A model generated the notes under the pieces. It was not told the origin of the DNA. It did no database searches and saw only the letters and a program-made list of their open reading frames with translations. Below are positions 10,637 through 53,500 of a DNA stretch of 64,000 nt, piece after piece (the first letter of the stretch is position 1; every line of letters begins with the position of its first letter). The DNA lies in assembly GCF_030867095.1 (NCBI RefSeq), contig NC_081826.1, positions 36,868,001-36,932,000 on the forward strand, written 5' to 3'. The position numbers and the translations under genes are program-made. The stretch is from Alligator mississippiensis. Lineage: Eukaryota; Chordata; Crocodylia; Alligatoridae.

Positions 10637-10644
10637 TGACGTCA
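10637..10644. promoter_or_regulatory. Full palindromic CRE (CREB/ATF site)
   Basis: A perfect TGACGTCA lies about 210 bp upstream of the inferred start site. A related half site, TGACGCA, is at 10787-10793, closer to the TATA-like box. The ornithine decarboxylase gene family is known to respond to cAMP signalling, so control by CREB/ATF factors is plausible. Binding itself is inferred. Confidence 0.65.
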
Positions 10645-10816: not shown

Positions 10817-10822
10817 TATAAG
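10817..10822 (+). promoter_or_regulatory. AZIN1: TATA-like core promoter element
   Basis: TATAAG within CACTATAAGAGACC stands alone in very GC-rich DNA. Its position predicts transcription starting about 25-32 bp downstream, near 10846, which fits exon 1 ending at the strong donor after 11167. The exact start site cannot be read from sequence alone. Confidence 0.6.
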
Positions 10823-10845
10823 AGACCGGCCGCGCGCGCGCCCGC

Positions 10846-11167
10846 CCGCCTGCCCGCCCGCGCCGAGTCAGCCCGCCCGCGCCGACAGCACCGCCGCCGC
10901 CACCACTGCCACTGCCATTGCCGCTCCCCGCGCCCGCCCGCCCGCAGCCGCCGCCGTCCCCGCCCCGCCCCGCTCCGCGCCTGCAGCCTGTGCCCCACGG
11001 CCCCGGCGCTGCGCTGCGCCCCCCCGCCGGCCGCCCCCGCAGCCTATGGCCCTGGCAGGCGCCGCTGCCGCCGCCCCGATTTCTGCTGCACGATCCCACC
11101 TCCCTCTTTAAAAATTCCGCCGAAAAAGAGAAGACGATTTTCCAAAGCTTTCGGGCCGTCGCCTCAC
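10846..11167 (+). other. AZIN1: AZIN1 exon 1 (5' UTR)
   Basis: The 3' border is a strong donor, CAC|GTGAGT, at 11167/11168. The 5' border is inferred from the TATA-like box. The exon is very GC-rich except for its last 70 nt, where an A-rich stretch carries the AUU start of the upstream conserved frame. Joining it to exon 2 keeps that frame open, which is independent evidence that the splice is real. Confidence 0.75.
11046..11111 (+). CDS. Short AUG upstream ORF (21 codons) in exon 1
   Basis: Runs from an AUG with C at -3 and G at +4 (a middling context) to a TAA at 11109-11111. It would encode a small Ala-rich peptide starting MALAGAAAAAP. Its stop lies 2 nt before the AUU that opens the conserved upstream frame, in a different frame. 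It exists in mRNA only if transcription starts upstream of 11046, as the TATA-like box predicts. No conservation data are available here. Confidence 0.35.
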   Translation: MALAGAAAAAPISAARSHLPL

Positions 11168-13087
11168 GTGAGTACCGGCCGTCATGGGGGGGGCAGCTGC
11201 GGCTCTAACATGGCGGCGCGGGGGCGAGCCGGGCCCCGGGGGCTGCGGAAGGGGCTCCGCGGCTGCCCCAACATGGCGGATCCCTGCGGAGGGCAGCCCG
11301 CTGCGTCCCGGCCCGCCGCGCCGCTCCTCTGCCTGCCCCGCGGCTGTCTGCTGCGCGGGGCGGACAGCTCCGGCGGGCGGGCTGGAGGATAGAGCCCCCC
11401 CCGCCCCGCCCTGCACTGGGAGGGTTTCCGCGGGCGCTGCCTCTCCCGGGCGCGGGGTAGAGCGGATGCCCGAAGCGGGCCCGGTAGCATAGCAGAGGCG
11501 TCTCCTCGCCTGTCTCTCAGAGGCCATGTTGTGTCTGATTGTGACTATCCATCCGGGGTTTGCTGGCTTGGTGTTGCACATCTCCTTCCTGCCCTGCCGC
11601 CGAGCATCTGTGCCTGCCGCCAGCTGGGGTCTGTGTGGGTGCTGCCTTCACAGGTCCTGATGCGGCTGGAAGCTGGGGGGAGAGGCCTGGGATGGTGCAC
11701 AAATGGCCTGTGCGGCTGCTGCTGCTGTGGGGGGCGGGGGATGTCTGGATGCCCCATGGAGGCACGGGCACCCTGGTTTAACATGGAGGTGCCCGCAGAA
11801 CGGGTCCAGTAAAGGAAGGAAAGTCCAACCTCTATCCTCTCCCCTCTTGTTCAGCTTCTCCACTTTTTTGAGGTGAAAGTCTCCCTCCCCTTTCCCATTT
11901 GCCTCAAGGACACACGTTCTCCCCTGTCAGGATAACAGTAAGGTGGCTGCTGCTGCCCGCCAGCTCTTCTGGAAGCCTCTTGGTTAAGCCTCAGCCATGC
12001 TGATTTGGTTGCCTGGAGGAGTCTGTGTGGCCTGATTGGTTATGTCCCTGTCAGTCACTGGTGGCTTGTGGAGAGTGTAGGAAGGAGGGTTGAGTCATTG
12101 CTGAGCTGCCGGCCTGATGCTGGCTGCTGCTGGTGTATCCAGAGTGATGTGTGATGTCTTTGTGCCGTGGTCCCACTGCGTGCTCTGTGGGAAGGGCACC
12201 CCAGCAGTCTGGGTGGGGGGGTCACAAGCTGGGCACAGAAAGGGGCTATGGGGTAGGAAGAAGGGAGACATTGTGGGGATTGTAGCACCTTGCAATGACA
12301 TACTGCAGAGGTGAAATAGTTAAGGATACAGTAGTAGGTTGTCAGCATCTTGGATTTTATTTGGATTATAGTCTAGACCAACTCAGTAGTTAGAACAAAT
12401 GTGTGGCTCTAATAGGGTGGCTTCAAATTGTAGCCAAGGAGAAAGGCAAGCAAGAATAGAGCTTCTCCTTGAGGTCTTTCTGAAACATATTTTCTGCAGT
12501 GCACATTCCTGCATGCCCAATAAATGTCAGTAGACAGGAGCAAAAGTATTGTTACAGCCATTCCCCAATTGCTGTGCTTCACGCTGTCTGCAGCAGTCTC
12601 CAGTGTGGGAGTGCTGCTTGATTGCATGGCCTCAGTGGAATATAACTGCAGTGTCTGGAGCTGGGAGTGTGTAGCAGTTATAAAACAGATTACCTCTAGC
12701 CCCATCTTTCTGGGCCGCTAGTCAGAGTTGGGCCTTAATTTCTTGAGCTACACAGTTTTATAAGTATAGGTGAGTTGAAACGTTGTTCTGGTTCTTCTCC
12801 CTTTCCCTAATTCAGGAGTTGCTGCCTAAGAAGGTACTACACTTGCTTGTTGTTCCTCTGTTCTTGAATGAGGCAGCAGCGTTTTGGGTAGGGGGTTGTA
12901 GTGAATAATAGTGGTAGTAGGAGGAGTTTGTTCCAGTCTGGACTGGTCCAGTCTAGTTCTTTCCTTCCTGTCACTCTGAACAATGCTGCTGCTGCTGTGG
13001 CTTGCGACACTGCATTCTCTTCTCTTCTCCACCCCCGCCCCCTGGGTCTCCAGCTGTAGTGAGTGCTTGCTGTAGTGGTGCTCCCTC

Positions 13088-13130
<43 letters not shown>

Positions 13131-16100
13131 GAGAGCTGCTTCTCCCAAAACGGCTCTGGTAGGCAGAGACTGCTGGCTGCTTTCTTATCCCCACCCCAAT
13201 GACAAGGTGAGGATTGCAATGAATTCTAAGGCTATGGAAAGGGGAGGGGATTGGGGCTAATATGGAGGCTAGGGCAGGATTCAGTGGTAATGTAATGTAA
13301 ATGTTTCTCCTCTGAGGGTCCCTGTCTATTTCAGTCTCTACATGAGCCATGCTGTGAAGCTGCAACTCTGATTTCCCTAACCTGTTCTGTGAAAGTAGCA
13401 AGCAACTTTGTGCTGTGGCTAGCTTTTTATTTGAACGTTTCTTTTGAGGGCTTGGAACAAAGGTGAATGTCACGTTATGTTCTGTTGTACTGTTTTCATA
13501 TCATATAATTCAAATTTCTTAGCTGAAAGTTAGGTGATTGCTGCATTACACGGGAACTAGGTTTGTTGCTTTCCGGTTATTTAATGTTCTAATGTGAATA
13601 TAAGCATGAGCTTTGATTTTAAAAACTTGTGTATGTTTAATGCTGCTAAAAGGTGAAGATGGATAGCTTTGGCAGAAGTCCTCTGTTCATCTGTGGGATG
13701 CAGAGCGGGACAAGCTTGCAGCCTCAACACGGGTCTGGAAGGAATCAAGGGTATATTGGGGCTGATTTGGCTTTCCATAGCCTGTGCAGTATTTTGGTGT
13801 CCCAGAGTTTGGAATTTAGTATAGACCTCTGAAGCCTGTAGTGCTCTGGGTTGTAAAGTCTGGATTTTTAGCCATGTATATCTTGATTAAGAGTCTTGGT
13901 TTTCTTGGTTGAGGAGCTGAGGTATAGACAGTGGACTTTTTTTTTTCTTCTTCTCTCCACTGAGGCCAAATCTACAACAATAGATTTTTGTCAGCATAGG
14001 TGTCAGGGGTGTAATCTCCAACACTGTTCTTCTGGCAGATCTCAATAATGTACACAGTAATATCAGTAAAAGCACAGTTTTCCTGGTATAGTTCGTTTCA
14101 CTCACATGCAGGGCAGGGTTACTATGCTGATATAAAGTTCAGCATTGCCAACATAGCTGTGTCCACATTGGAACACTTGCTGGTAAACTATACTGGTATT
14201 CCTATACCAGTAAAATATTCCTAATACAGTTCTAGCCAAAGTTGTTTGAGTGTTAAAGACCAAGAAAAACTCTTGAATTCTTTGCAACTGAAACTTTGCT
14301 GTGTTGGTATAGAATAACTATGACCACTTTTTAAAGCCAGGCTTGCTGAAAATAGGAACAATTGAGCACATCAGTCTAGAAACTGTTTTGGGGCTGATTC
14401 TTTGAAATCCAGACTGTCCAGATTTGATTAGGGAGGTGTGGGCAACAGCCCTATGGAACTGTGGGGCAACTTAGACTTTATCAGTGTCCTGCCACTGACT
14501 GGAAAATGCACATTTTCATCACAATTGGATTCTTTTAAAACAAATTTGTTACTTATGTTAAAAGGTCACTGTGCTGTCTTTTAGTTATGTACTGTTTAAT
14601 ATATAGAAAACAATTTCACATGTATTTAACTATTAATTCAAGATCATTGCAGGTGGAGAAGCGCATGGAATATTTTCTTTGAGGCTTAAAAGCATTGATG
14701 TACGTAAAACTTCAGTGTGTATTAGTTGAAAGCACTATTGTTAGTTATCACTGGAGGTAACTGTCCATTTTTGTTTCAGTTCCATTGTGCGCCTTTTCTT
14801 TTTTGGACATGTAAAAAAAGTGTTGTATTTGTTTGTAGTGTGTGGCCTTTTACATACTGCAATGAAGGCCATCCTTTCCATCTGAGCTCACTAAACATTT
14901 CTTAGAGGCTTATCTTGTTGTAAAAATGTGCAACAAATATAGAAATCTGTTCAGTTCTAGAACAGGATCAAAAAAGTTATATTTAAAATTATCCTTTTGC
15001 AAAGTTAAACAAGTATTATCTTTCCTACACATTAGCTTAAGAAATAATTTTGTTGAACTCTCCATTTAAGGGATGGAAAAAATGGAAGTTAACTGCACCT
15101 GCAAAGCATCTAGAATTAGTACCTCACCAACTTTTTTTTAACCATTATAAATCAGTCTTAATATTTGTACATGGATATTTCCAAGGAGGAGGTATATATT
15201 GACACACAAGCACATAAGATTGCATTACAGCAGAGACAGGCAATCTTTTTTGACTGTGGGATGGAATAACCCACCCTGCGTCAGAGGAATGTGCTAGGAC
15301 CCAGCTGCAGTTAGCACTTGTTTCCACAGCAGTGTGGGAAGAGTGACTACACCTGGCACTTCTCTGTGCAGCACCATGGAGAGAGTGCCCACCACCAAAA
15401 GCCTGCATCTGCAGGCCAAATTCAATGTGCCCAGGCCATGGGCCATAAGTTGCCAACCCCTGTTCTTTAGCACTGATACTTGTTCCTTTGTCTCAAAGGC
15501 TGTTACTTTGAGTGTAAACTATGAAGAATGAGTTAGTATTACGTCCACATATTTGCTATTTTACTCTAGCTAACAAACATTTGAACAGTTATTTTATGGA
15601 GTCGCAGTGGTTTAGCTCATCAGGGCATGAAAGAAATTATAATAGTAGTTGGTGAGTGTGTCTACACGTTCATTAATACACAGTAGTTACTCTGCATTTA
15701 GTTTAGTACTTGCATAATGAAGTATTAACTAAATGTGCGGTAACTACAGTTACTGTGCAGTAGCAACAGTGCACTGTCGTTTTGTGATGCTTACTGCTCA
15801 GTAGCTTAACACTGCACAGTAGCATATTAGTATAGCTTTTGACTGGTATGCTACTGTGCACTGTTATTAAACTACTGTACAGTAAGCATCTTGTGTAGTT
15901 GTGCCCAGTCTGTACTTCTTAACAACAAAGCACAATATATCTACTTGATTTCCTTCTTTGGGGTACCTTGTGGATAAGTGAGATCTGTTGGACATGGTAT
16001 ATTATTTTCTCATGTGCAACTCACCTTTCACCTAAAAATTGGGGTGTGTGGGCGTATTTTTCTCTGCTGGAAAAGAAGCACTCCTGGAGAAACTGCATGC

Positions 16101-18532
16101 CATGTAGCTGCCAAGATGGCTGCTGCTTGTGTCTACTAAGCAGACTGAAGAGATGGAGTCTTGTGTAGGCTCTCACAGGTGTAGCTATTGCCTGAGCATT
16201 GTTACTTTGGGCACAAGCTACAAGTGAGCTGTTTGTAGTATTTTGATGAGGCCTATGATGTGGAAATAACACTTTATTTATGGGAACTTGTATGAAGAGC
16301 TATTTCCAGTGAAGAACCAATAGTCTTGCTATAGCCCTTTGCAAAGGCCTTGGGTCTAACCCTGTGTGACAAAGCGTACAGCCTTCTGGAAACTGTCTAA
16401 TAAGTCCAGCATTATAGGAGAATGTCTGCCATGCAGGAAGCTCCTGATGCCACACTTACTGGGTGCTACATTTCCAGGTGGACTTACCGTCATGTAGTTG
16501 GCTATCACTGTGGAAAAGTGTTGGGTGTGTTTTGCCTGCTGTGCCCCCCCCTCCCCCCCTTCCAAAAACAAGGTGGATGTTTTGTGCAAGAAAATAAGGT
16601 ACTTGGATGGTAGTAAGATTTTTTTTTTTGTAAGTTGGGAAGTATGGGCTAAAGTTATTGTTGTGTGGATATATACTTGGTTGAATAACTGCAAGGAAAG
16701 GGATCAGTGTCAGATTGGCAGGAAGTCTTGTTGGATTCTACAAAGATCTTTTCTGGGTCCAATGCTTTTTAACATTTTGTAATTGCTTTGATACAAAAAT
16801 ACAGTATGTTTATCAAATTTGTTTGTCTACCTGGGAGACGTTGCAAACACTGGAAGGATAGGGTTAAATTCAAAGGGATTTTGTTAAACTGGGAGACTGG
16901 ACTATAGACGACAACATGCAGGGAAGCAGCAGCATATGCACAGATACAGAATGTATTATACCATGGCCAAGAAGGATCTGGGAGGGTTATGGTGGTACAC
17001 AAACTTATCGACTCAAAATGGAAGCACTGTATGCAAGAGGTGATAAAGTGCACTACTCCACCCTGGTTAGTCTTCACTTTGAGTGCTGTCTCCAGCTTTG
17101 GTCACTGCATTTTAAGAAAGATGCAGAGAAACTGGAGGAGATCCACTGACTGGTGACAGCAGATAAGAAGCCATATGAGGAAAGGAAGAAAGAATTGAAA
17201 TATTTTTTAGTAGGGAGAACAGGAGATTAAGGGGTAGAAGGTGTTGGCAGTCTTCAAATTTTTGATAATGTATTATAAAGAGGAGAGAAACATTGCTTTT
17301 CTTGCCTCACTGAGCAGGGCATGAGGCAGTGATCTTAAACTACAAAAAAACAAATTTTGATCCAGTTTCAGGGAGAGAACTTTCTTAAGAATTGTAGGGC
17401 AGTGGAACTAGTTTTAGTGAAGTGGTAGTTTCCATCATTGTAGGTTTTCAAGAACAGGCTAGATCTGCATCGGTTATGGGTTACCAGACACTTAAAATTA
17501 ACAAAATCCTTAGAAATTAATAATACCCCAGGTTTCTGAAAGACTGATCAGTATACATTTCAGGTAAAGTATTATAGTCACTTTTAAGCTATATGTGCAA
17601 GAACTCGGCTTCTCAGCAGACTTAAAATACGCTGGGCTCTAGTCAAACACTGGGATAATTTACTTCAAGTCTAATAGGCAGATATATAAAAATGTATTTT
17701 AATGCTTCATGTGTAACCTACTTGCATTCTGTGCACCAGTTAAAATACCTCACATTTCATTTGAATGCGTTTGAGTTCAAATCTAATTCGCTAAGTTTCC
17801 ACAGTCTCCCTTTCCCCGGGTTACTACACCCTATTTTCATAAGGCAGTTGGCTAATTTGGCACTACTTTGAGAGGCACTGCTTATGGTGTCATTTGTACC
17901 CCCATAACTATTGACTTCCCTTGCCTGTTCACAGAAGCTCTGCTGGAAAACATGGGAGCTGACTACTATTGTAGAAAAGTTGAGATTGGAGAGGCCACAT
18001 TGACAACATCAGTTGTCTGCGAGAGTGACAGGGTGGTAGTGTTCAACATGTAGTTGGTAACATGGTTATTAATTTAATTTTTTCCTACCACCCTTTTTAA
18101 GTTTGGACCACATAGCAGTTTTAAAGCTCCCAGTTTCGGATTGAGACCCATTTTTAATCAATTGAAGAAATGTGGATGTTAACTCATGTTTGTAATTTGT
18201 GGGCACAAATAGTACTTGGATGTGTAGAGGGCTTTTACACACGCCTTGCTGTACATGTATCTTTTGAAGGGCAGGTTTGCTATGCAAGAGTTATAGACAA
18301 ATGCATGCAGAAGTTGCTGTCCATAGTAAAAACACTGTTAAAAAATTAATTGGTTCCCATTTTTGAAGGAAGTGTCGTCTTGCTCAGTGAGTTCCCAATT
18401 TTACTTACCTGTACATTTCTCCCTCAGGGCAAAATCTCTGATCAGGTTTACAACTATCCAGAAGGCCTAGGAGAAGTGCTTTATAGAGAACAGTTCGACT
18501 TCAACGCTGAGCCACCTTGGGAACCTAGCTGA
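11114..18532 (+). CDS. AZIN1: Upstream conserved coding region (uCC) of AZIN1 mRNA, AUU-initiated, 52 codons
   Basis: Join 11114-11167 with 18428-18532. Exon 1 gives IPPKKRRRFSKAFGPSPH (AUU read as the start). Exon 2 continues GKISDQVYNYPEG and ends REQFDFNAEPPWEPS, then stop. The frame contains no AUG, so initiation must be non-canonical; the AUU has A at -3. Vertebrate AZIN1 mRNAs are known to carry an AUU-started upstream frame. High polyamine makes ribosomes pause at its PPW motif, queue, and raise AUU initiation, which lowers AZIN1 synthesis. The PPW sits here four codons before the stop, as in that model. Splicing is in phase 0 on both sides. This is a feedback sensor in cis, and the peptide may have no role of its own. 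The exon join and AUU assignment are inferred from frame, motif and length. Confidence 0.85.
11164..11171. promoter_or_regulatory. Palindromic E-box TCACGTGA on the exon 1 donor
   Basis: A perfect CACGTG core with T/A flanks of the USF/MYC/MiT-TFE type spans the exon 1-intron 1 border. The GTGAGT donor uses half of the palindrome. The related ODC1 gene is a classic MYC target through intron 1 E-boxes, so a similar input is plausible. Confidence 0.55.
11207..11217 (+). promoter_or_regulatory. YY1-type motif, first copy
   Basis: AACATGGCGGC matches the AAnATGGCGGC consensus found just downstream of start sites in CpG-island genes. The AUG inside is intronic and not a translation start. Confidence 0.5.
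11270..11280 (+). promoter_or_regulatory. YY1-type motif, second copy
   Basis: AACATGGCGGA, same strand, 63 bp after the first copy. Two same-orientation copies in early intron 1 make a chance match less likely. Confidence 0.5.
13092..13128. repeat. (CT)n microsatellite
   Basis: About 18 CT units. It generates the Arg-Glu and Ser-Leu repeats in spurious frames on both strands. Confidence 0.95.
15231..15462. mobile_element. hAT-like non-autonomous element
   Basis: Ends CAGAGACAGGCAATC and AAGTTGCCAACCCCTG are imperfect inverted repeats of the CAGGGGTTGGCAA type seen in hAT elements. The flanking 8-mers (CATTACAG and TTCTTTAG) agree at only a few places, so the duplication is decayed or my borders are off by a little. 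Confidence 0.55.
15653..15910. mobile_element. Palindrome-rich short element (MITE-like)
   Basis: Starts GTGTGTCTACACGTTC and ends near TGTGTAGTTGTGCCCAG. It is filled with repeated ACAGTAG/CTACTGT words in both orientations, which could fold into long hairpins. The family is unknown. The CACAGTAG word also occurs in the small hairpin at 59384-59425. Confidence 0.45.
16690..17480 (+). mobile_element. Old, degraded CR1-type LINE fragment
   Basis: Scattered frames recall CR1 reverse transcriptase: FLGPMLFNIL near 16730-16780 and a segment like HFECCLQLWSLHFKKDAEKL near 17075-17130. The latter matches the CR1 block that reads LEYCIQFWAPQFKKDVEKL in the fresher copy at 60625-61530. It has several frame breaks and no intact domain. 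It lies in sense orientation in intron 1. Confidence 0.65.
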
Positions 18533-18565
18533 TGATAGTAGGGTTCCATCTCCTAACTTGTCCAT
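18428..18565 (+). other. AZIN1: AZIN1 exon 2 (5' UTR; carries the conserved end of the uCC)
   Basis: 138 nt between a CCCTCAG acceptor and a GTAAGT donor. It encodes the C-terminal 34 codons of the upstream frame including PPW, then four in-frame stops in a row (TGA TGA TAG TAG). It has strong codon-like conservation features and no AUG before 18532. Confidence 0.85.
18532..18565 (+). CDS. Third upstream ORF overlapping the uCC stop (exon 2 part)
   Basis: The uCC stop and the next stop form TGATGA, which contains an AUG at 18532-18534. Read from there the frame gives MIVGFHLLTCP and, across the exon 2-3 splice at 36834, ends at a TAA after three more codons (FVA). If the acceptor is at 36852 instead, it ends at once. 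A stop overlapping an AUG is the arrangement used for termination-reinitiation, so ribosomes leaving the uCC could be captured here. Speculative; no conservation evidence. Confidence 0.3.
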
Positions 18566-22571: not shown

Positions 22572-23859
22572 CAGGGGCAGGCAGTTATTTTGGGTGGACG
22601 GCTGCTTACCCAGTTTTGGCAAGCTGTTGAGGGCCGCATGGGTAGCCTCACCCCCTGGTCATCATCTTGGGACCAATGTCCGGATGTCTTGGGGCCAGCA
22701 CCAGTGGGGCTCGGAGTGGGGCACAGGCTGGCAGGGGTCTGTGGAGCTGGTCTGGGTTGCACCAGCAGGGAAAGGTAGGAGCTGGTCCGGCTCTGTAGAG
22801 CCCCTGCTGGCGGGGATTGTGTACTTCTGCTGCCCTGTCCTGGACCCTTCCGGCGCTGGCCCCAGGACACTGGTGTGGGCCTTGTGCACCCACTCATTCC
22901 CGGTGCCCCCCAGCTCCGTGGTACAGGCAGGGGCAGCATACAGTCCCAACCCCCTGCTCGCTGGCAGGGAACAAGCTGGTGCTGAGCATGGGGAAAAGCG
23001 GCCCCACCTCATGGCCAGTGCTCCCTGCTGCAGCTGCTCGCAGCCCATGCAGGGCTGTCATGAGCAGGCACAGGCAACCCCATGTGGGCTGTGAGTGGCT
23101 GCAGCATGGGGCGCCAGCCATGGGGCGGGCAAGGGGCTGCTTTTCCCACACTCAGCACCAGTTTGTAACCCGGCCCCACGCCAGCTTTGGGCTCGCCTGT
23201 TGGGGCTGTACCGTGGTGGCAGCGGCTGCAGCCCCCCGGCTTGCTATACTGGACAGTGTTTGCTGCTGCCTGCCTGGAGCTTGCGTGCTGGGCAGCCCAG
23301 AGGCGGCGGTGGCAAACGCTGCCTGGGAGGGCTGCAGCTGCTGCTGCCACGGCACAGCCCCAACGGGCGAGCCTGGAGCTGGGGCTGTGGGGGGAAAAGT
23401 GGCCGCTCCCCTGCCCTGTGGCTGGCGCCCCGTGCTGCAGCTGCTTGCAGCCCATGTGCGGCTGCTTGTCCCTGCTCAGGACAGCCCTGTGTGGGCTGCA
23501 AGCGGCTGCAGCACGGAGCACTGGCCATGGGATGGGGGAGGGGCCACTTTTCCCTGGGCTCCTTCCCTGCCTGGGGTCCTCCCTGGTCTCCCTGCCTCTG
23601 CACCTGTACCTGAGTTTCCAGCACAGTGCAGCCACATCGTCCCAGGCTGGAAGCCCCTCCTGGGGTTTCTGGCTGGGGGAGGTGGGGTTGGGCGGGCCCT
23701 GCTGTTGCGGAAGCCTGCCGGGCTTCCCCTGGATTGTCTTCGGTTCCTGTCAGAAATGACAAATATTTATTTTCTAAATTTTTTTTAGGGGCCCCGTGGG
23801 CTGGATAGAATGGCCTCGCAGGCTCGTTCTGGCTGCGGGCCATATTTTGCCCACCCCTG
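22572..23859. mobile_element. Long non-autonomous hAT element nested in the 22401-25334 copy
   Basis: Starts CAGGGGCAGGCAGTTATTTT and ends TATTTTGCCCACCCCTG. Flanks ATATAGTT and ATGTAGGT agree at 6 of 8. The GC-rich interior contains large imperfect palindromes (for example 22976-23161) and no transposase. Long open frames across it on both strands (up to 323 codons) share no recognisable domain and arise from the GC-rich palindromes. Confidence 0.8.
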
Positions 23860-36833: not shown

Positions 36834-37031
36834 TTTGTTGCATAATTTAAGGACCCGGATATAAGGCTTGGCGGCCCATCCCTTGTGTTTCTTGGTTTAT
36901 GACTGTCGGCTTTGCGGAATACGGCTGAGATGAAAGGACTTCCTGAGGATGCAAACTACTCCATTGGCCTACTGGATGAAGGAATAACTCCTGCAGATGT
37001 TATTGACAACTATATTTTTGAGCAAACTCAT
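36834..37031 (+). CDS. AZIN1: AZIN1 exon 3 (start codon exon)
   Basis: The acceptor TTTTTCTGTTGCATAG fits an exon start at 36834; a second AG at 36850-36851 is a weaker alternative. The first 96 nt are 5' UTR, with the ATG at 36930 (A at -3 and A at +4). It encodes residues 1-34 and ends in phase 0 at CAT|GTAAGT. Confidence 0.9.
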
Positions 37032-40000
37032 GTAAGTACTTGATTCCCAAAACAAGTCTAGTTTATTTTAACATAACACTGTTCTTGTTTAAGTTACTGG
37101 CATTTAATTTTTAATCTGTAGTGGTAATTGAAGTCTGACTAACAGTTATGTTATGGGTGCCACGGCACTGACCCCTTCAGATAAGGCTGTATACATTTTT
37201 CCATGTAAACTTGTATCTGGTTGTGTTAGCCCTTTGAACTGAAGTTCTGTTAGCCCTTTGCTTCAAGTTGAAATATTTTGGGGAAAACTTGGTGTTTGGA
37301 AACTAAAACAAAGAAAAACACCCAAAGCCACCCCCCCCCCCACTGTTCAGTCACATCCAGTTGTATGAGGCTAGAGGTAAAATCATCTTTCTGACATTTA
37401 AAATTTTTCCAGCTGATTCATTGAAGAGCTGTAGCCTGTGTAGAATTTGGGACATGGACATGAAATATTGCAAACAAGAGATTGGGGGGAACAAGAAATA
37501 ACTGCTATCCTAATGAACTATGTGCACATGCATGTGTACAGAGTTTGCCTCCTTGTGTACCAAGTGCCTTGTGTGTGCTGTAGCTGCCACTGATCCTCCT
37601 ACATGGCAAATGAATAGTGAACAGGTTGATGTTACTGTATCTCCTACAAACACCCTTTCCTTGGGCAAGGTGTTGCTGGGCTGGGAGGTGGTAAGTCTAT
37701 CCTAGGTTTTTTTTCACAGAAAAGCTATGAAATTCTGTGTACACCATAGCCTTTACTAAGCAAGGTTCTTCCCTGCAGCTTCATCTTTATAGGCAGGCAA
37801 GTTTGGGGAGGGGGGCTGGGTAGTGTGGAGCATGCCTGCCTACCCCTCCCTCCCACAGGGCGGTTCCAGGGTTGGCGCACACTGGTGTTGTGCGCGTGGC
37901 ATCAGAGGAGTGTGCGGCAGGGGCTGTGGGTGCAGGGCTGCAGTGGTGTTGGAGCTGCTATTGCCAGCCCAGTTTGGGGGAGGGGACTAAGCCCCGTTAG
38001 CCCCAGCATTCCACCGCCTATGTTGCCAGATGTGTGTATGTGGCTATACTGTCAATTACTAGACCATATAACCTTCTGAATTGTGTGGAGAACTCACCAA
38101 ATCCTGATTCCTAGTCCTCTTTTTATCAAACAGGTAAACCTGTGCTGTGGGTATGAAACTCCTCCTAGATCCCAGTCTTGCTGGTATAGGGGGACAGTAT
38201 GCTTCCAGAACTTGTATTGGTTCTTTCATTCTTCCCTTTCCTCAAAGGAAATTGATATTTTTTAGTATCCTTGTGCATATGCACTTGCAAAGTCGGAAGT
38301 CAAATGTTAAAATTGATGTTGCCTGGGAAATCTAAATTCAAATGCATGTTATGATACTCCTTATGTGATCACAGGCTGCTAGTTTTATGGGACCCCTGCC
38401 TCATTGATTGCACAGGAGGGACAGTAAATGAAGAACAGAGGATGATCTCCTGTGGTTAAGACATTGGACTGAGACCAGACATCCTATGTGATGTTGAGTA
38501 AGACTATATTAACTGATGGATAAGGGGACCTAATGTGAAGTTGCACTGGTGACCTGGCATTTCCCTAACTTTCCAGTACTTGACTTTACAATATTAATGC
38601 TCTTAATATAGGTTTTTTTATGTATTTTAATAGGATTTCCATGCCTCTGACATGGGACAGATCTTTAATGTGTTTGAATCTGCCAGTTAAAATACTGAAC
38701 AAATTGTTTCATTAAAACGTCACTTGAGTTGCTGGTTTTGAAATAATAGTAGTAACAATTGGAAAATTCCCCATTTTATAAGATACAAAACTTATGTTCT
38801 GATCATGGAAGCATTTATTTAATTTTTCCCCCTCCAGGAAGTTCTAGACTTCAAAATATGTATGCTTGTAAAACACAAGTTTTGTGTTCTGAAGTATAGT
38901 TAGAATGATGATACTACCTAGCAGTTAAGTAGAATCTTTCAGCCAAAGAATTGCAAGGTACTATCTAAAAACTTTTTATATCTTTGTAGTAGAAGGTATT
39001 CATTTCAAGTAAGCTGGCAGAAAAGTCAAGTCAATTGCTAGAGGTCATATGTAAAAGCTATGCTTGAATAGGGGAAAAAGATGTATGTAGCCTTGACTCC
39101 CAATGATTGTCAGATGCAGTAAGCATGAGACTTCATGCTTCATTGTGTTTTTAGTGGGTTTTTTGTGCTTTGAGGGGAAGGTCCGTAACTCTCTTTTTAA
39201 ATGTTTGATTCTTATTTCTTTTCTGACTTCCTTTGTTTTACAGACTGGAAAAAAAGCATTTTTTGTTGGTGATCTTGGAAAGCTTATGAAGAAACACATT
39301 GAATGGCAGAACATGATGGCACCAATAAAACCATTTTACCCTGTACGATGCAATTCTACTCCAGCCGTACTTGAGATTCTAGCAGCTCTTGGCACCGGAT
39401 TTGTGTGTTCCAGTAAAGTAAGTGTTAATTCTGTAACTTGCTGTTACCTTCCTTGAGCCCTGTTTAATCCGTTTCAGGTAATACAACAGCTTTTGGCATT
39501 AGTTACCATGCTAATATTGTCTTTTTGCCTTTGTAATACTCAATTAAAGAGTATATAGTTTAAAGCTGTACTTGTACCCTTGAAATAACTGGCTAACACA
39601 AATTAGCTAAAGGAAAACCTTATTTGTGCAAGTTCCAGAAGAAATTTTACACATTCACTACAAGATTTTCATTTGCCGTTCTTAAAACTCTGCTACTGTC
39701 TTGTTTTCTAGACTGAAATGGCAATGTTACAGGACTTGGCCATAGCTCCTGAAAATATCATGTATATAAATCCTTGCAAGCAAGCTTCTCACATAAAGTA
39801 CGCAGCGAAAGCTGGGATAAACATCATGACTTGTGATAATGATATTGAGCTACAGAAGATTGCACGTAATCATCCAAATGCAAGGTAAGTGTTGAAAATT
39901 TTAGCGTTTTTCTTGCTGTGAGAATTTTAACTTCTGCTATGCTACCTGTCTACTGGGAAGCAGGAAAAGTGTATTTTTAATAAAATGTAGCCATGCTAGT

Positions 40001-41471
40001 CTTAATCTAACCTTGTCTCTATTGCAATATTTATCTAAAGATGCTACCGCTGTTTTGTAGAATTTTCTCTTGGTTTTGGTTTCCAGGCTTAGTAGGAGAA
40101 AATCACTCCTCCTTGGTATTCTCTTCCCCTCCCCTCCAAGGTTGAGCTGGGTGAAGACTGGAAGCCCAAGTTTCACTTAATGTTTCAGTAACTTAATGTC
40201 AGCATTTTGGCACCTCTTTATCGACAAGCTGGTTTACTTTGTGCAGCTTGAGTAGCTTTTCTTTCTTTCAGGACTTCCTTTATTTCCCTGGCTCCTAAAG
40301 GCTTCAACCAAAGTCTGGGGGGCAAATTCTCAACCAGTAAAAGTACACATTTGTGTCCTGTATCTGGCACTTGTATGATGCTATTGTACAGCATATCCAT
40401 GTTCAATGGAGAACTAAAAACAGTAAAGGTTTGCTTCCAGTCCCTACTTGTGCCACTTTGACCTAGAGGGTTTCAAAAGAGAAAGCAGATATGGATATAT
40501 ACTTTAATTTACCTCTTAGATGGAATATTGTTAGTGCTACCCACATTGGATCTAGATGGAAGTCAAACCCATAGCAATGTTGGTTACTTCATCAATATTA
40601 TCCTTCATCATTTACTTTCAAACCTAAAGACCTGCCATAGGCTGTATCTTGACTCCTTGGGCACCAGTGCTTGAAGTGAATAATGCAATGCTTCACACTG
40701 GGTGAGGAGGCAATATTGTATTTTTACATTATCAGGGTGCATCAAGAAAAAGGTACCATGGCCTGGTTACTAAAGCCATTGATGTGAGGCAGGCCCTTTC
40801 CCCAAAAGACAAATACCATTCAGATACAGGTCTTATAAGCAGAACCCAGGGACACAAGAAATCGGCAAAAATCTGTAAATATTTAAACTGTCTCCAGTAC
40901 TTATTTTCCACTCTGTTGTGGCTGTTTGTGCTTTGTGCAATTTAAAAATGCAATTGTATGAATTCAAACAAGGTCTGGGAGCCTGCTAATGGCAAAGCAG
41001 AGCAGCAGCAAGCTAGGAAGACTCAAGGTATCTGACTACAATACTTCACTTTCAGTGTCTGAGTTGATTGGTTCTTAAATTAGTGCCAATCCAGAAATCT
41101 TTGGAGGAAATAATTGGGATTCCTGCTTTAGTCCAGTGGGAATGTTGTGCCTCGTTCTGGTTTCTGTTGATGAAGTGTCAAGCCTGCCCAAACCATCTGT
41201 CCCATCAAATACTGAGGAGCTTTTCTCAGCTTTACTTTTCTTCCTTTGTCCTTATGTACTGCCATACAAGCTTGATAGTGAGGAGGCTATGGCTGGAGAA
41301 CGATGGTTCAGATGTTTGTTGCAAGTCCTTAGTTTTTGCCTAGCTGCTTTAGGACAAATGTGTGTTTAGCTCACAGCAGCAGCCTCCAGGTTCATCTGTT
41401 CAAAGGACAGTAGCCATTTTTTAGAACTAGGTCTATCCTGGCTGGATCAACTTTGTAGCACAGGTCCCTAG

Positions 41472-41507
<36 letters not shown>

Positions 41508-44500
41508 TAAAATACAATCTGTGCAGGAGTGTGTGGACTTAAGCTAGCATCTAATGCAGCTGAGCTTTAATGTGGGTGATTACGGTAGTGAGAATCACAA
41601 TCTTGGATGGCCACTTATTCACTTGGTTGCAAGTCTTTTAGGCTCATAGAAAACTTGAGGGCATACCCTGTGAACCTCTCTAGTGAAGAGATGAGTGAAA
41701 GGCCAGCTTGCATTTTTACCTTACCTCATTTCTACAGGGAATGGGAAAGCCTTTGCTTTGAGGACTGGCTTCCATATTTATTGGCATCAAGAATGGAGTG
41801 ACCCCACCAAAGCGTTCTCTGCTGCAACATTGGCAGTAAAAGTCTCAATGAAGACATTCCCAAATTTGAAACAAACAAGTAAAACAAAACCCTCTGCTTT
41901 GCGAAACAAAAGGAACTTTGTAAGTAGCTAGTGGGTATGTTAGAAGCCTTCATAAACTAGAAAGGCATGTTAGAGGATCATTCAGTTAGAGTAAAGCAGT
42001 TTGTCTGCTTTGTGTTGAGAGAACTATGCAGCACTTGCATGCATCCAAAATAAACTGCCACTTATATTTAGGCACTTTGCTTAAATTCAGTTTCTAGGAA
42101 GAATCTAGTTCCAACTTGAGTTTCATTTCCACAGAACCCAAATCCAGATTCTTACCATGTAATTGTTTCCTTCTGGATTTCTTCTACTGCATTCCTTAAG
42201 TTTTAAAAGAGCTTTTAAAACCAAATATTTTTTATTAAAAATAGGCCATTAAAAGAAGAGATAAGAGCCTATTATTTTCAGATGTGCCACCATAAAGAGA
42301 GATTCTTGTAAATGTCTTGTTTGATGCATCTTCTCTTAAATGGAGTCCCAGATCTTGGATGTGCCTTGAATTCAAGGGTGTTGTATTGTTAGAAGCATGG
42401 CTTTCTCTTTTATTTTAATTTTTTTGTTGTCTGTGGACATATCCTCTGGTTATTGAAGTATTATTGCTGTTTTCAGCAATGGTGTGTGTGCATGCACACG
42501 TTTTGAAAACAAAACCAACCCTAAAAAAACCCAGACCCTTAGAATCATAAGAAGGTAGGGCTAGGAGGGACCTCATGAGGTCATCTGGTTGAGCCCCTGC
42601 TCAGGGCAGGATAATCTGTCTAAACCATCCCAGTGAAGTGTTTGTCAACTCTCCTCTTGAAAATTTTCCAGGGATGAACAAGGTGTGAAATTTCTAAGTA
42701 GCCTATTCCAATGCTGACTACCATTATACCAAAGTTCCTCCTAATCTCTGACCGAAACTTCCTCTTCTGCATCTTAAAGCCCTTGCTCCTAGTCCTGTCC
42801 CCTGTGGCCACAGACAAAAGCCCATCTCCATCCTTTTCATAGTATTTGAAGACCTGTTATCCAGTCTGCCTTCAGTCTTCTTTTCTCCAGACTAAACTCT
42901 CTAATCCTTCTGGCCTTTCCTCATAAGTCTTGCCTCCCAGGCCCCTAATCACTTTTGCTGCTCTGTGCTGAACACTTTCCAAACTGTCCCAATCCTCCTG
43001 GAAGTGTGGGGCCAAAAACTGGACATGGCTTTCCAGGTGAGGTCACCCTACTACCCCCTCCCCCCTCCATCCCAGGGTCTATCCAGGCCATTCTGGATTT
43101 CAGCCCTGCTCTCCAATGTCTTCAGCACCACCTAACTTGGTCCACCCTTCGTTTTGTTTTAGTTTGTGCTTTCACTTCTTTGTAAGTATAGCTATTCTTT
43201 TTTATAGTTCAAGCTCCTTGCGCTCTGCAAGTGAGAATCTAGCACAGAAAATTGTATCTTAACTGCTCTTTAAGGGGTTGCAAGATTCTCTTTCTTCTAG
43301 TTGGAGGGCAAACCTTTTTGAAGAATTAATCTGCTCAAATGTTGATGGGTTTTTCTATGTCTTTCAAGGCATTATTTTTAATAAACAAGATATTGTAATG
43401 TTTCGTTGCCTCTTTGGGAAGTTTTCACTTCCTGCTAAAATAGGGTTTGACTGGAAGAATCCAAGGGCAGTTAATTATGCTCAGTGTGCATCTTTGAAAC
43501 CTAGAGTAGGGGCAGGGATAAGTAGTGTTATGTGCCTGAGCACTGCCATTTCTTTTAAAAACTGAGATTGTGAAATCCTGGACTTGCAGTCCCCTCACTA
43601 GCCAGCTAAGACCCAGAAGTAAGAATCCTGCATGGTATTTTCATAAGAGAGAAATTGCAAGGAAATGTTAGTTTTTCAAGTGAAAATGGCTAGCACTTAA
43701 TATATATTACATTGTCATGGAAACTCAACTGAGGAATTTGGTATATGTAGTCCTAAATATTTTCAGATTAACATGTCCTACTATGGCTGTAGGATGTAAA
43801 ATGCAGTGTTATGGTTTTGAAATCCTTACAGGATAAATTCAAAGGTTGTGTTTTTTTGTGTGTTCGGTTTTTTTTTGTGCATTTTTTGTAGGGGGCGGGT
43901 TGTGTTAAAGGAATGTTATTAGTGTTTCCTTATGGTGTTACAAATATTGCTAAGTACAGTAAATATTTTGTTAAACAGTTTTTTTTTTTTTTTACTTTTT
44001 TTTAATTCCCCTGAAACGCTTCTAATGAGTTAGGAGATATAACTGACCAAAGGGAGTGAAATGACATAAATTGATATCAAGACAAAGGATAATAAGGGCA
44101 TCCTTTAAAGAAATAGGAATGATTTACCTCTTCATGCATACTCCTCTAAGTTGTCTATTGTAAATATTTTCAGTTTGGGAGTTTTTTTTTTCTTTAGCAG
44201 AGATTAATAATGCAAATCTAAGATTAGAAGCTACTGTTTAACCCTGAATTTAAGATCAATTAATGGATTATACCCTAGTACAGTGGTCACCAACCAGTGG
44301 ATCTTGATCCACTGGGAAATCTCGGAGCCTCTTGGAGTTGATCCAAGTCTGGGATGGAGGGCCAAGTGCCCATGTGCATGCACGGGCACACCCCAGCCTA
44401 GCAGATCAGTCCATGGCAGAAGGGGGGACTAGATAGAAGCCCCTACAGTGAGGGACAGTGCTGCAGGAGCAGGGGTAAGTTGAGTGGGGCTCCGGTCAGA

Positions 44501-47500
44501 TGTGACTTTCCTGCTGGAGAGGTGTGACCCAAATAATTTTTTCTCCCTCTGCCTGAATCTGCCCCCCACTCTCCTCCCAGCAAACTTACCTGCTAGGCAG
44601 AGTGGGGGGAGTGGCAGCAGCACACAGTAGATCTTGGGTTGCTTTTAAATGCCAAAGGTGATCTCCTTCTTTAAACGTTGGAGGACCACTGGCCCAGTAT
44701 TACCTCGTAGCTTTCAATCTACACCTCTGTTAAAGGATCAAGTACCATAGAGGGTTCAATCAACGTATAATCAATGTGGGGGGATATAGGTACCAAAATA
44801 CTGTTTTGCTTAGGAAGTGACTACCTTCCTGTAGTCCTCAACCTTGAGGGAGCTTTATATTCCCCCTAGTCCTCCTTAGTGATAGAAGGACACTTCTATT
44901 TGTCAATAGAAAATAGAAGTGGGACACCTATGTAGCCAAAAAGGTGACTGATAAATTTCATGTGGAAGACCTAAATATTTTAAGGAACTTGGTAATAATA
45001 GCCCAAATACCATAGAATATTTTTCAAATCATTTTACTTTTTCCATGGAACAAAAATAGTAAACAAGTGTGTAATTATACCTGTTGTTGATGCAACTAAG
45101 TATCGGGTAACAAATGATGGAATAGATCACTTCTTCAAAATACAATGGAAGAACAAAGCCCCAGGCCCAGATAAAATACCAGTGGAAGTTTTATATAGAT
45201 AATATCTAATGGTGGACTCTGGTCTTGGAAAAATAGTATAACTCTATAGGCCAAATTCCAGATTCCAGGAAAGGGAGTACCATTGTACCCATTTTCAAGA
45301 AAGTGCTAAAAGATGAGCCAGAATCTTATTGCCCCGTAAGTTTAATAGAAGTCTCAGCTAAAATCTTTGGGTGCCACTTGTTATACCATCTTATAGCATG
45401 GATAAAAAGAGAAAACGTATATGAACATCAAACTAGATTTAGGGATGGATATTCTGCTATAACATATTTATCCTTCAGTTTGAGCCATTGGGACTGACCT
45501 TTTTCTCTTTTGCACCTGCTGATAGAATATCATAAAGGTACACGTGCCCAAGTTAGGTGTGGTCTGAGGGGCAAGCTTGCACAACAGAAATTTCAGACAA
45601 AGTGGTTAGACAAGGAAATGTTTTGGCCCCCTTGCTATTTAACTTTAATGTGACTGATATGTTATCAGAAACATATAGGATGCTCATTTTCATCCCCCAA
45701 AATTACTAGCAACCCCAATCCCTATTAATGTATGCAGATGACCATCATACTCTCAAGAACTCCCATCAGCTTACAGAGAGCAGTTATAACTTTTGAGCAT
45801 CTTTGTGGACAAAAGAAAGATAAATGATGATAAATGCAAAATAATGCTTTGGGGAAGCTGTCTGAAATACCTGTGGAACATGGGGGGGAATCAAACTCAA
45901 AGTTATTAAAACCTATAGATACTTGGTTGTGATGCTTTACAGCTTTTCCATCATGGCAACACCACAGTCAGTCAGTTAAAACTAAGGCAGCCCAGTTGGC
46001 ACTGGCTCTAAAGAAATTTTTGAGACCACAGCAGGACGATCAGTCTAAGCTCCCATATTAGCATATAAAGCCAAAGTTGCGTCTTGGATCCTGTATGGGG
46101 CTATACTGTTAGTAATGATGTAGGCATACCTCAGAATAAGTTTCTTGGGGTTCTTCTGGGTCTTCCTTGTTCAACTCCCACACCTCTCTTGAGGTTAGAG
46201 ACAGGATTAGATTCCATTTTAACTAATATTATTATTAGAATGGCAGGACTCTGGTTTTAAATCCTGTCTCTTCTGCCATCTGATTTGGTCAGATTGTGTT
46301 TTTTTTATATATATAAGACCTCAGTAATCGCCCTTCTTTTCAGTCTCCCTGGCTAGCTTTTCTTTCCTGCACTTTCCCATTTTCCAGGATGGGACATTGT
46401 CAAAGACAATGAAAGACTCTTCTCCCCCATAGAAAACGTCTGGATTTCCAGAGGTTCTGAGAGTTTGCTAGGCAGAATGATTTTTTTGCAGCAGCAAGGG
46501 CTACTTTCATCACCCCTCCTATATTCTTTGGAAATTAGATTGGAGTGGGGAGAAAAGTATTTATAGCTGGATCTCAACAATAAATGGCAAACTTCTGACT
46601 AGACTTGGGACGAAACAGATGCCCACAGCTGTTTTTGTCTAGATGTAGGCTTTCCATTCCAAGGGCTAAAATGTTGCCCACCCTGTCTAGGAGTTTTGGA
46701 AGATGCTATTCATTATGCTGTGGAATGTCCTCCAGCAAACGGATCAATATTTAGTAAACAGTCTTGCAATTTTTGCTTACAAGACTGAAGCAATCGGAGC
46801 TAAACATCTTTTACTGTTGATATGGCTGATAAACTTTATCAGTGTTTGTTTGGGTTTTTACTGTTAATTGTGGGCCTATGCACAACATATTTATAGATTC
46901 ACGATCTGATTTATCACCATATTTGTACTTGTGTTAATTCTAGGAGTAGGAATAATAGTTGGCCTTATCTGCATTTCTTTTTCTATTTAAATTTATATTA
47001 CAGTTGTATGTCTGTTACGTTGTTTTCGGGAACACTGCTTTCAGCCAGAATCCTTAATAAATTGAGCTGAATTCTTTGGCAGCTGCTAGATTATCATATC
47101 TGTAATAGATGTGAGCATTCACAGCCAGAATGTGTAGCTTGCTAGTTACCAATGCCTTTATCTCCAGGTACGATTGCTATAATGCCTTCTACATGATGCA
47201 TGTAACTTTACCACTTGACTCTCAAAAGGTGGTAGCTAGTAGCATCTTGCTGGGATTAAAAAATAGTACAAATAATAGCAGCAAAAGAAATAACTGTAGA
47301 AAAGGGATTCATGGCAGTTGTCATTTGACTTCTGTCTCAGGTTGGATGGGTGACCTGGGACTTTAGCCCTGAATAACCCAAAATAAGTCCCCTTTGGGGG
47401 TTATCATAAATAACCTTGTGCCTGTGTTTGAAGGATGTCTTTCCAAATGCTCAAACTACATACATTAAAGCATAACAGATGATCCACTTGGCTAAGGAGA

Positions 47501-50500
47501 TTCTATATATCAACAAACCACAGAGACGTAACAGCTCCATGAGGACAAGGTCTGACGAATTGGTTGTCCAGTTAGGGAAAGTGTCTTCAAACTCTCCCCT
47601 TACCCAGGCAACCAGTAGGCAGTAGGAAGAGGAGAGGGAGTGAAACAGAACTCTCTCCTCATGCTCTGCTTACACCTGTCAGTGGAGCTAGGAGGCATGT
47701 GGAAAGGGTGCTCAACATACATCAGACTGTTATAGCCAAAGCTGATATGAAAAAATAAATCCAGCCAGGCCAGTCCAAAGGGAGTTCCAGTGCACACCTC
47801 CAAACAGCATTTTAAAGAGCAGCTTATAAGCAATCATACTCTTATTAGATGGTAACACTTTCTTTTATTACAGCACCCAACAGAGTCTTGGTTGCTACAT
47901 TTCGAAATCCCTTATCCTTGTTGGCTCCATGTTTTAGCCCCTAATTGCTAGTTTTTTCTCTGTACAGGATTGTTTTTATTAGGTTCACTTGATTCATCCA
48001 TCGATGGAGTTGGAGTACTGACAGCATAATCAACATACTTCTGACAGTCTTCAGGCTGCACATATGCTGATGATGATGTAAACCAACTGTGCCCCAATCA
48101 TCTTCCCCTTCTCTTAGGCTCTTACTACACATTGCCACAGAAGAAATTAATGGAGTTGAGGAGATGAGTATGAAGTTTGGCACCACACTGAAGAACTGTA
48201 GGCATCTCATGGAACTTGCTAAGGAGCTTGAAGTCCAAATAGTTGGTGTTAAGTGAGTAGCTCTCCTCCTCCCTTTCTGCTAGGTCTAACATTAAATGCT
48301 CAAACAGATATAAGACTGATTTTTTTTTTTTATTTTTTTTTTTTGGTGCATGCTGACCATTTCCTTTTTACAGGAAGTAATAAAGCTATTTGTATAATTT
48401 TGAGAGCTTTCAAATAGTTATGCCCTCCAACCAGTATGAAAAAGAAATAGCTATTTTAGTGCCAGTGTTACAACACTGGGAATATCAAAATCCCGTGTCA
48501 CGGCCAGAAAAATTGCCAGGTGTTTTATCCATCTTCCCCAGCCATGCTTTTGTTTTCCCAGCCAGTTTTTATATCTTCAGTTTTGCACATAGAAATAAGT
48601 TGAGCTACCAAAAAGCAGTGATATGTTTGGGAAAACTAGCACATCTTGGGTGAGACAAGACTGTAAGGTATATTTAACTCAGATTTGCACTGATGTTTAT
48701 CCTAGTCACTTTTAGTAGTAGAGATCATGTAACTGTTTTAGTTCTGACCTGTAGATGGCAGAAGATTTCCTTGAAGCATTTTTAGTTCTTAAGATCTGAA
48801 TGATTTGTGATTCTTCAAACTGAAATAAGTTGGATACACAAAGAATAAGCAAAGATTATTCTGTGTCCCTTCATCTGCCAAAGATGTGTAGAAAGCACTA
48901 ATGAAAATCAGAGACGTTTCAAAAAAACCATGCAGAACAAAATTTGTTTTTGTCATCAGGATGAATAACATGATTTTACCTCCCCTCTGTCTGCCCCCCT
49001 TCCCTACCTAATAAAGACAACTTTACTTAAATTGAATACTTTTCTTTTGCTGTAATTGAAATTAACAACTTGTTAGGGGTATTACCATCTGGTTACAAAG
49101 TATAAAACTATTCAAGCAGTACTCCTCTTAAGGAAAATCAAATTGTTGAAGTACTGTAACTGGCTAAGCAACTAGAACAAAAATTGAAGTGCTAAGCTAG
49201 GTTTATGACAGCAGTAGTAGCCTCTTGCAGGTGAAGAGAGAGTTTGACTGGTTTGTTCAAAGTTCAAAAAAAAAAAATTGGGATTGAAAATGGCATTTAT
49301 TTTTATTTGCATGTACAAGAATGCTAAATGACAATCTAAAAGTTTGAAGAGCATCCTGAACAAAAACTACCTGTTCAGTTTACTAACTATAGGTACTTCT
49401 AATAATCTGTTTAGAATAGTCCAATTAACTTGTTTTTTCTTCCTCCCCAATTCATCACTTGTTAAGGTAGTTTAATTACAAAAACTAAAAAACACTATTT
49501 TTATGTATTTGGATGCAAACTGTCAATCTTTGTATTCTAGATGCATTTCAAATAACACACAGTTAATTTAGTAAATAAGAAATATTATTGGTCAGTTAGC
49601 TCTACGTATATTTTACCATATTTAACTATACCATAAGTGGAGAATAATATCGGTATAGGATTGGTCTACAGTATTTAAAATGCTTTGTCTATTTTTAGTT
49701 CTGATTTTACATTCTACACTGCTCCTCTTGCCTACCACTAGGTGGTTACAAGTCTTCAATTCATAACTCCTAGCTATCTTGTGTAGTGCATATCAGTGTT
49801 CATTTATAAAACTGCTTCAATGAATTGAGTTAATATGCATATGCTTCAGGGACTTGGTACAAAACCTTCCACCTCTGGTTGCTGCTTTAGTTCTAACTGA
49901 ACTTAACAACCAGAAACTACTATTGATTGACTCTTGTAACTTACAGTTACTTGATACATATTTAAAGTGCTTTTTTTTGAGTTTAAAAGCTTTATACAGT
50001 GGTGTGAAATATTAAATGTGTTTGCGTGTCCAAGGGCACAGATGGCACTTCAACTGTACTTTCATTGACTGATTTCATGAGCAATAGCAAGGTTATTCTT
50101 TGGAGCTTTAGGCATCTTGACTCTCCATTAAGACTTAAGAGTCCACAGAAAGAGTTCATTAAGGAGTATAATAAAACTATTTTGAGGTTTGTTAAACTGT
50201 GGTCTATATTTGTTTTGTTATGGGTAAAACTCTTAAAGTATAAGGAAAATGCATCAGAGGTGTGCTGCCTGAACTGCTTGTATAGCCATCGTAAATCTCT
50301 CATGTGCCTCTTAAAGTCAGTCATCTGTGCATGGACCTTAGATGTCTCTACTAGTCTAGATAAATGGCCTATTTTAGTACTGATGTCAGGTTTTCCATGC
50401 ACTTATGTTTTTTGTTTTTCTTTTTCAGATTTCATGTTTCTAACTCCTGCAAGGAACCTCAAGTGTATCTACATGCTGTATCTGATGCTCGGTGTGTGTT

Positions 50501-53500
50501 TGACATGGCTGTAAGTAGCTATATTTGTACATGTTATTAATGTCGGAGCCAGCAGAGATTTGTTTAAAAAAAAAAGTTATTTTTACTACTGTAGTTCTAG
50601 AAGCCTTGGTCACCCACCAGAAGCCAGTTGTGTCCAGAAAAGAACTCCCTGCCCAGAGTTGCTAGTCTGAGGAGAATAGGGAAGATAATTGTTATAAATA
50701 GACCTACCTTTCAATAAAGGAAAGATGATACAAAACTATAGGTCTTTAATGTGATTGAAACAAATCTAAAATCTACTCTAAAAGACTTTTTGATTACATT
50801 TTTAAAAGCCAACTGCTCTTTATATAAAAAAAAAAAAAAAAAAGTCTGTATTCACTCCTTAACAGAACATTTACCTTTTTATTACAAATACAGTAAAAGC
50901 TTTGTTATCCAGCACCCATGGGGAATGGGGGGTGACAGATAACAAAGTACGCCAGTTTAATTGAGGGGCCTGAACAGGAGTCTTTGCCTGTTTGGGTTGC
51001 TGCTTCTCCTGCTGCCCCTCTTGCGGCATTGCTGACCCTCCTGCAGGCCCTGAGGGACAGGCCCCATGCAAGCTGCTATGCCCCGGGCCATGGGGGCTCA
51101 GAGAAACCAGAAGTGCCATGGGTGAGCACTTTTGGTTTCACTTTACCTTGCAAGACAGCATGCTGGTTAATAGAACATGCTGGCTTGTAAGGTGCCAGTT
51201 AGTGGAGCTTTTACTGTACATATTTTAAAGTAAAAGGCTTTAAAATGCTAGACCATAGCTCAGGTACTCTAGTCTTCATAAGATGATATTGCTACCAACT
51301 AGAAAGTAAGGTGCATAAGGAAAGCAATTATGTACAAAGGGTTGATGATGTATCATTAGGGCTTTTGGAAGGAAGAGACAGAAATGTGAACTCTTCCCTT
51401 GAGAAAGAGGAACTCTGGATCTAGAACAAGGGTGGCCAACCAGCAGCTTGAGCCACATGCAGCTCTTCAGAAGTTAATATACGTCTCCTAAATCTTTGCA
51501 CGAGCATATGGTGACCACATACATATACATGTATAATCATTACATATTACTATGGCTCTTTGGCAATGTACATTGCTAAATTCTGGCTCCTTCTCAGGCT
51601 CAGGTTGGCTACCCCTGATCTAGACATACAACAGTTGTTCTGCTGTCAAAGAATACAGTCAGTACAGTAGCGCTTCCCAAACTTTTTTCTTGGCATGGCT
51701 TCTCACTCTCAACCTGCAGCTTCCCCACACACATGACTATCCACTGATGATGTGACCCCATTTGGGGTCATGACCCACAGTTTGGGAACTGCTGCAGTAC
51801 AGGCTATTAAAATGTAGCTGGTGCTTCTGCATGATTCCATAGAAATAAAAGTATGGCAGAACCATTCCAACTTTACCCCTGCTTACTACTTACTCCAGAA
51901 TTAAAATTTAGGGAGACTTGGTTAACTCATAAAGGCTCATATAGATGTAATGCTTAGATTTGTAGCCACTACTGTGGGCTCCCACGAAATGGCTCTCCCT
52001 TCCCATTTAGTAGTTCAAATGTATGTTTGTCCACCAGCTCACTTGCATCAACCTTAATTTTTTGATAGTGTTACACTTGTTGTTTTTGGGTGTAGATTTT
52101 TTGGGTGGTGAAATTATTTAGTAAAAGCATATTGTTCTGTAGTAAAGAGAAATCTAAGGTAATTGCCTTTGTTAAAAAATCTAATGTTATTTATGAATGA
52201 GAGACTGTACAAGTGCCTATAAAGTATAAAAGCTATATTACTACCTTTTAGGAAGAATTTGGTTTTAAGATGAACATATTGGACATTGGTGGAAGCTTCA
52301 CAGGTTCAGAGCTTCAGCTGAAAGAGGTATGTACTGCAAAGACGTGTAACTGATTTTCCCTATTTGTTAATATTCAGCTGATACTAATATCTGAAACCTG
52401 TACTGTCACACCAGACCAGTACTCAGATAAAAATGGGGATTGATTGATAGGACTTTATGCCATAGTTGCAGCCATAAGGGATTAATTTAGAAACTAACCA
52501 GAAGTAGCACAAACCTAATAATCTTGTTAGCTTCCTAATTCCAGCACAGATAATATTATGTCACCCTCCCTCCCCCCCCCCCCCTTGGTATTAAGAACTA
52601 GCAAATGGGAAGAAAAGTAACCAGTCTGAATTGCCACCACCTGCACACCAAACAAAGGCCTCTCTGGTACCCTTGTCACTAAATTTGTTAACACTATCAT
52701 GAGCTTTTTGGATTTTTCTTGTTGAGGCAATTCTACTTTAACCTATCTATATTTGTTGAATATTGACTACCTTCTGCAGCATTACTGTCTTCAGTGTTTT
52801 AGTGTGGACTTGTGGCTGACAGCATGTCACTTACCTATTGTAAGGACTAGATTAATACTAGGTGAATTCGGTGAACAACTCAGTTTCTTTCCTAAACTGC
52901 AGAATTGAAGGGATTTGGCCAAAATGTTTTTGTTTAACTTGGTGGGGGAAGGGAGAGTGACACTTCTGCCTTTATAGATTTGCAAATAGTTTTATATTTA
53001 GTGCTGTGCTGGAACAATTTTGAAGTTGCTGGCTGGGAATTTGTGATGGGAGCGGTGGCCAACTGTCAACCCTGCATCTGTTACAAAAACAAGAATAAAA
53101 GAGCTGACTTCAATCCCCCTAGGTTAATCGTGTCATCAGTCCATTGCTGGTTGACTACTTTCCTGAAGAATCTGGCGTGAATGTGATTGCTGAGCCTGGA
53201 TGTTACTATGTTTCATCTGCATTTACTCTAGCAGTTAATATAATTGCAAAGAAGGCTGTGGAATATGATAAACATCTTTCCTCTGGAAGTAAGAAACACT
53301 TGTTTTGTATGTTTTATGAATTGGTGCAAGAAAGTTTCTCTCTTGAGTAAATCAGTTTTTTCTGAAAACATTGAGATTAGTGGAGTTGAACAAATGGTCA
53401 CTTCTGGAGCCTTAATTCATACTTGGGGTTCTGCCAGTGTGCATCTCTGATTTTTCTGCAGGTTTAGTATTTCTTTCTCACCAGTTACCAGATATGACTT

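Follow-up and report, generated by a model that had tools for sequence, protein, structure and literature searches.

Does the alligator retain, ahead of AZIN1, the unusual upstream reading frame described for mammals? For human and mouse AZIN1, a regulatory upstream open reading frame (uORF) initiated at AUU, known as the upstream conserved coding region (uCC), was reportedly described by Ivanov in 2008 (PNAS) and in 2018 (Mol Cell). We analyzed a 64,000-nucleotide stretch of the Alligator mississippiensis genome, referred to here as the window, in which an initial annotation had proposed such a frame; all positions are those of the window.

A frame without AUG across two predicted 5' UTR exons

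Joining 11114-11167 to 18428-18532 yields 159 bases that translate to IPPKKRRRFSKAFGPSPHGKISDQVYNYPEGLGEVLYREQFDFNAEPPWEPS followed by a stop, giving 52 codons and zero Met. The exon borders, the phase 0 join and the Met-less frame proposed by the initial annotation were reproduced by this joining and translation, which also displayed the basic N-terminus and placed PPW near the frame end, followed by EPS and the stop, as had been claimed. The donor reads CAC/GTGAGT (GTGAGT from 11168) and the acceptor CCCTCAG/GGC, and the join falls between codons. Features of the locus are collected in Table 1.

Table 1 Coordinates of the uCC frame, its leader and the AZIN1 coding sequence in the window.
Feature	Position	Strand	Basis
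TATA-like TATAAGAG	10817..10824	+	sequence
AUG uORF, 21 codons, MALAGAAAAAPISAARSHLPL	11046..11111	+	sequence; predicted
uCC part 1: codons 1-18 including the AUU, at the end of 5' UTR exon 1	11114..11167	+	sequence and human match
Intron 1, GT-AG, phase 0 inside uCC	11168..18427	+	splice consensus and ungapped human peptide match
Modelled 5' UTR exon 2, followed by donor GTAAGT at 18566	18428..18565	+	inferred from splice-site consensus
uCC part 2: codons 19-52, then stop TGA (18530-18532)	18428..18532	+	sequence, human match
PPW pause codons CCA CCT TGG, codons 47-49	18512..18520	+	sequence
Four consecutive in-frame stops TGA TGA TAG TAG closing uCC	18530..18541	+	sequence
Exon with main AUG	36834..37031	+	inferred
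AZIN1 coding sequence: 449 codons in 10 coding exons, zero internal stops	36930..56295	+	exon model, structure and Pfam matches

The translated frame was compared with the human AZIN1 uORF peptide printed in the legend to S5 Fig of PMC9648851. The two are equal in length and align without gaps, with 45/52 residues identical; the first 9 and the last 31 residues are the same, and substitutions occur only at positions 10, 11, 12, 16, 17, 20 and 21. Since the ungapped match crosses the join, the predicted 11167/18428 exon junction gains good indirect support. The initial annotation had named a broken frame or a lost PPW in other species as evidence that would refute it; in this comparison, made with human only and at the peptide level, the frame is unbroken and PPW is kept.

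The two halves of the human peptide were also scanned separately across the six reading frames of the window. The first half matched 13/18 residues at 11114 (next-best 7/18), and the second matched 32/34 at 18428 (next-best 8/34). The window holds a single match to a degenerate DNA pattern for EPPWEP, which was absent from all shuffles (0/100). Searching the 2.35-Gb genome (195 contigs) at the protein level with the 52 residues, with the best candidates scored, gave three matches: the two exons and one at chance level (E = 9.78). No spliced retrocopy of the uCC, which would reveal the junction, was seen among these best candidates, an observation short of proof of absence. A degenerate DNA pattern for FNAEPPWEP found no match in either genome_contigs or viral_contigs, two collections not intended for vertebrates. 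A genome search with a 12-base motif, which differs from the actual coding of KKRRR in the uCC, was discarded as uninformative (112 matches on both strands vs 84 for the reversed control).

The downstream gene and the intervening leader

The 449-codon protein encoded downstream carries both ODC-fold Pfam domains and is identical at 342/449 aligned positions to a human AZIN1 sequence entered by hand. Its best-scoring solved chains, 3btn (791 bits) and 4zgz (779 bits), are both named antizyme inhibitor 1, and the best ornithine decarboxylase (ODC) reached 474. In an alignment to ODC 7s3f, K, D, R and R of ODC are replaced by R, V, H and C, respectively, in the alligator protein; we take these four to be cofactor or active-site residues (69, 88, 154 and 277 in ODC numbering). 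Such replacements would be expected of a non-enzymatic inhibitor. Because the antizyme inhibitor 1 chains score well above ODC and these residues are replaced, we assign the gene to AZIN1, not ODC. The uCC frame lies in its 5' leader on the same strand, and the two presumably share a transcript.

The human match across the junction and the intact AZIN1 gene downstream on the same strand bear out the identity claimed by the initial annotation. The frame is very probably the AZIN1 uCC, orthologous to the mammalian element, and would be subject to its queuing mechanism. The AZIN1 uCC is an already known, published and conserved element, and the identification is correct.

Further searches of this genome addressed other members of the polyamine circuit. 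The ornithine decarboxylase family gave 10 matches at three loci, namely the window and two others, C1 and C6, and the genome search with the 52 residues, in which the best candidates were scored, found no uCC-like frame at C1 or C6. The eIF5A family gave one match, with an internal TAG. The antizyme family gave no match here and none in any of 14 control genomes (0/14), a result that says nothing either way.

In the exon with the main AUG, the acceptor at 36834 is preferred because of its polypyrimidine tract, and acceptors at 36852 or 36868 could be used instead. Under the 36834 model, two more short AUG uORFs precede the main AUG. The AUG at 18532 overlaps the uCC stop (UGAUG) and opens a uORF of 16 codons, or of 11 or 22 under the other two acceptors. 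The other uORF, at 36899-36928, keeps its 9 codons whichever of the three acceptors is used, and a single base separates its UGA (36926-36928) from the main AUG at 36930. Acceptor 36852 would create an extra 4-codon uORF.

Elsewhere in the window before the main AUG, GC content is raised (0.48 to 0.63 per kb) at 22570-25280, 30499-31938 and 33277-34251. Long overlapping open frames run on both strands of these stretches, and none of nine such frames matched Pfam (0/9). Downstream of the AZIN1 coding exons, a reverse-transcriptase fragment at 60604-61527 (Pfam RVT_1, E = 1.8e-12) is probably a transposable-element remnant. No Rfam families were detected in the window at gathering scores, and the tandem repeats of the window have no evident link to the uCC frame.

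AUU context and the exon 1 leader

The claim that the frame opens at AUU held in part. An AUU is present at 11114 and the frame has no Met, but it is stop-free further 5', back to 10787, and the AUU start is therefore assigned by homology to human. From about 10845 to the AUU there are seven in-frame near-cognate codons, including three CUG, and a longer product initiated at one of them could also be made. According to an excerpt of PMC9082881, initiation at non-AUG codons is strongly dependent on a G in the +4 position. At 11114 the AUU has C at +4 and A at -3, a context consistent with a weak start.

The TATA-like site suggests that transcription starts at about 10843-10850. A perfect CRE-like TGACGTCA lies at 10637-10644, about 200 bases 5' of this putative start; at least one such site occurred in 16/100 window shuffles.

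The modelled exon 1 does contain an AUG. This codon, at 11046, is out of the uCC frame, has a C at -3 and a G at +4, and is placed inside the transcript because the TATA-like site would set the start upstream of it. Its uORF ends at TAA 11109-11111, two bases 5' of the uCC AUU, and could lower initiation there. We found no mention of this uORF in the excerpts of the cited uCC papers, and claim no novelty for it. This adjacent uORF may modify the proposed polyamine switch.

Proposed polyamine switch, alternatives and known systems

The published account of the uCC combines a weak AUU, rare initiation and a polyamine- and eIF5A-dependent stall at PPW (excerpts of PMC9082881, PMC11058473, PMC10855120, PMC11818727 and PMC7530721). 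A ribosome queue reaching back to the start then gives more uCC translation and less AZIN1 (excerpts of PMC9082881, PMC11058473, PMC10855120 and PMC7530721); section 9 of PMC4383229 is likewise cited for the mechanism. For the alligator, we infer from conservation and the published mammalian work that the exons are spliced, the AUU is used, ribosomes stall and queue, and the system responds to polyamines. In this pathway, most scanning ribosomes would bypass the weak AUU and go on to the AZIN1 AUG. At high polyamine levels, eIF5A action would be impaired and a ribosome translating the uCC would stall at PPW, followed by queuing of scanning ribosomes behind it as far as the AUU, increased initiation at the AUU and reduced AZIN1 synthesis. 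Less AZIN1 would free antizyme, lowering ODC and polyamine synthesis. The distance from the AUU to the first Pro of PPW is 46 codons (138 bases), the same as in human; given the equal peptide length this distance is exactly kept, as queuing would favour. In an excerpt of PMC9082881, the AUU is said to lie about 30 codons 5' of the stall, compared with 46 codons before PPW here and in the published human peptide.

Three alternatives to an operating polyamine switch were weighed. The product of the frame might be a small peptide or protein that functions once released, beyond stalling alone, which we regard as unlikely. The basic start of the frame could suit such a product, and 31 consecutive human-identical residues may exceed the needs of a PPW stall; stalling of the nascent chain can be enough to place many residues under constraint, and the 52 residues have no Pfam match at E up to 0.001. 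The element is, moreover, explained by stalling and queuing in the excerpts of PMC9082881, PMC11058473 and PMC10855120.

Slightly less probable still is that the frame is a relic, kept by descent after its regulation had disappeared or been rewired in the alligator lineage, as could happen if the exon 1 uORF diverted ribosomes past the AUU. The stop of that uORF, two bases before the AUU, gives this idea its footing, but some leaky scanning past the exon 1 AUG is likely because of the C at -3, and decay, the expected fate of a relic, is not seen: the frame is unbroken, keeps its length, PPW and stop, and equals human at 45/52 residues. A chance open frame spanning two unrelated GT/AG sites can hardly be credited: exon 1 is GC-rich with few stops, and two of its three frames run through it from 10861 without a stop, but both halves and their join match the human peptide and no other convincing genome location was found among the best candidates scored. 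In our view, the human match has already refuted this explanation. The conserved uCC with its stalling and queuing mechanism is the preferred reading.

An AUG-less regulatory frame split over two 5' UTR exons, easily missed by annotation, is therefore intact in the alligator, with the exact human length and the pause motif retained; its practical value lies mainly in annotation.

In common with the human AZIN1 uCC, the alligator frame has 52 codons, a first residue encoded by AUU, a PPWEPS end and a position upstream of AZIN1. It differs by seven substitutions within positions 10-21, and its leader has the exon 1 AUG uORF two bases before the AUU, the human side being known here from the uORF peptide. 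An excerpt of PMC10855120 gives the uCC motif as PPWxxPS-stop, one residue longer than the PPWEPS seen here or in human. Polyamine-responsive uORFs are also described for AMD1 (S-adenosylmethionine decarboxylase; MAGDIS, excerpt of PMC9648851) and for yeast HOL1 (MLLLPS, excerpts of PMC11818727 and PMC10855120). Unlike the uCC, both are short, start with Met and use other stall motifs, and the HOL1 uORF acts at termination on Pro-Ser-stop, according to the excerpt of PMC11818727.
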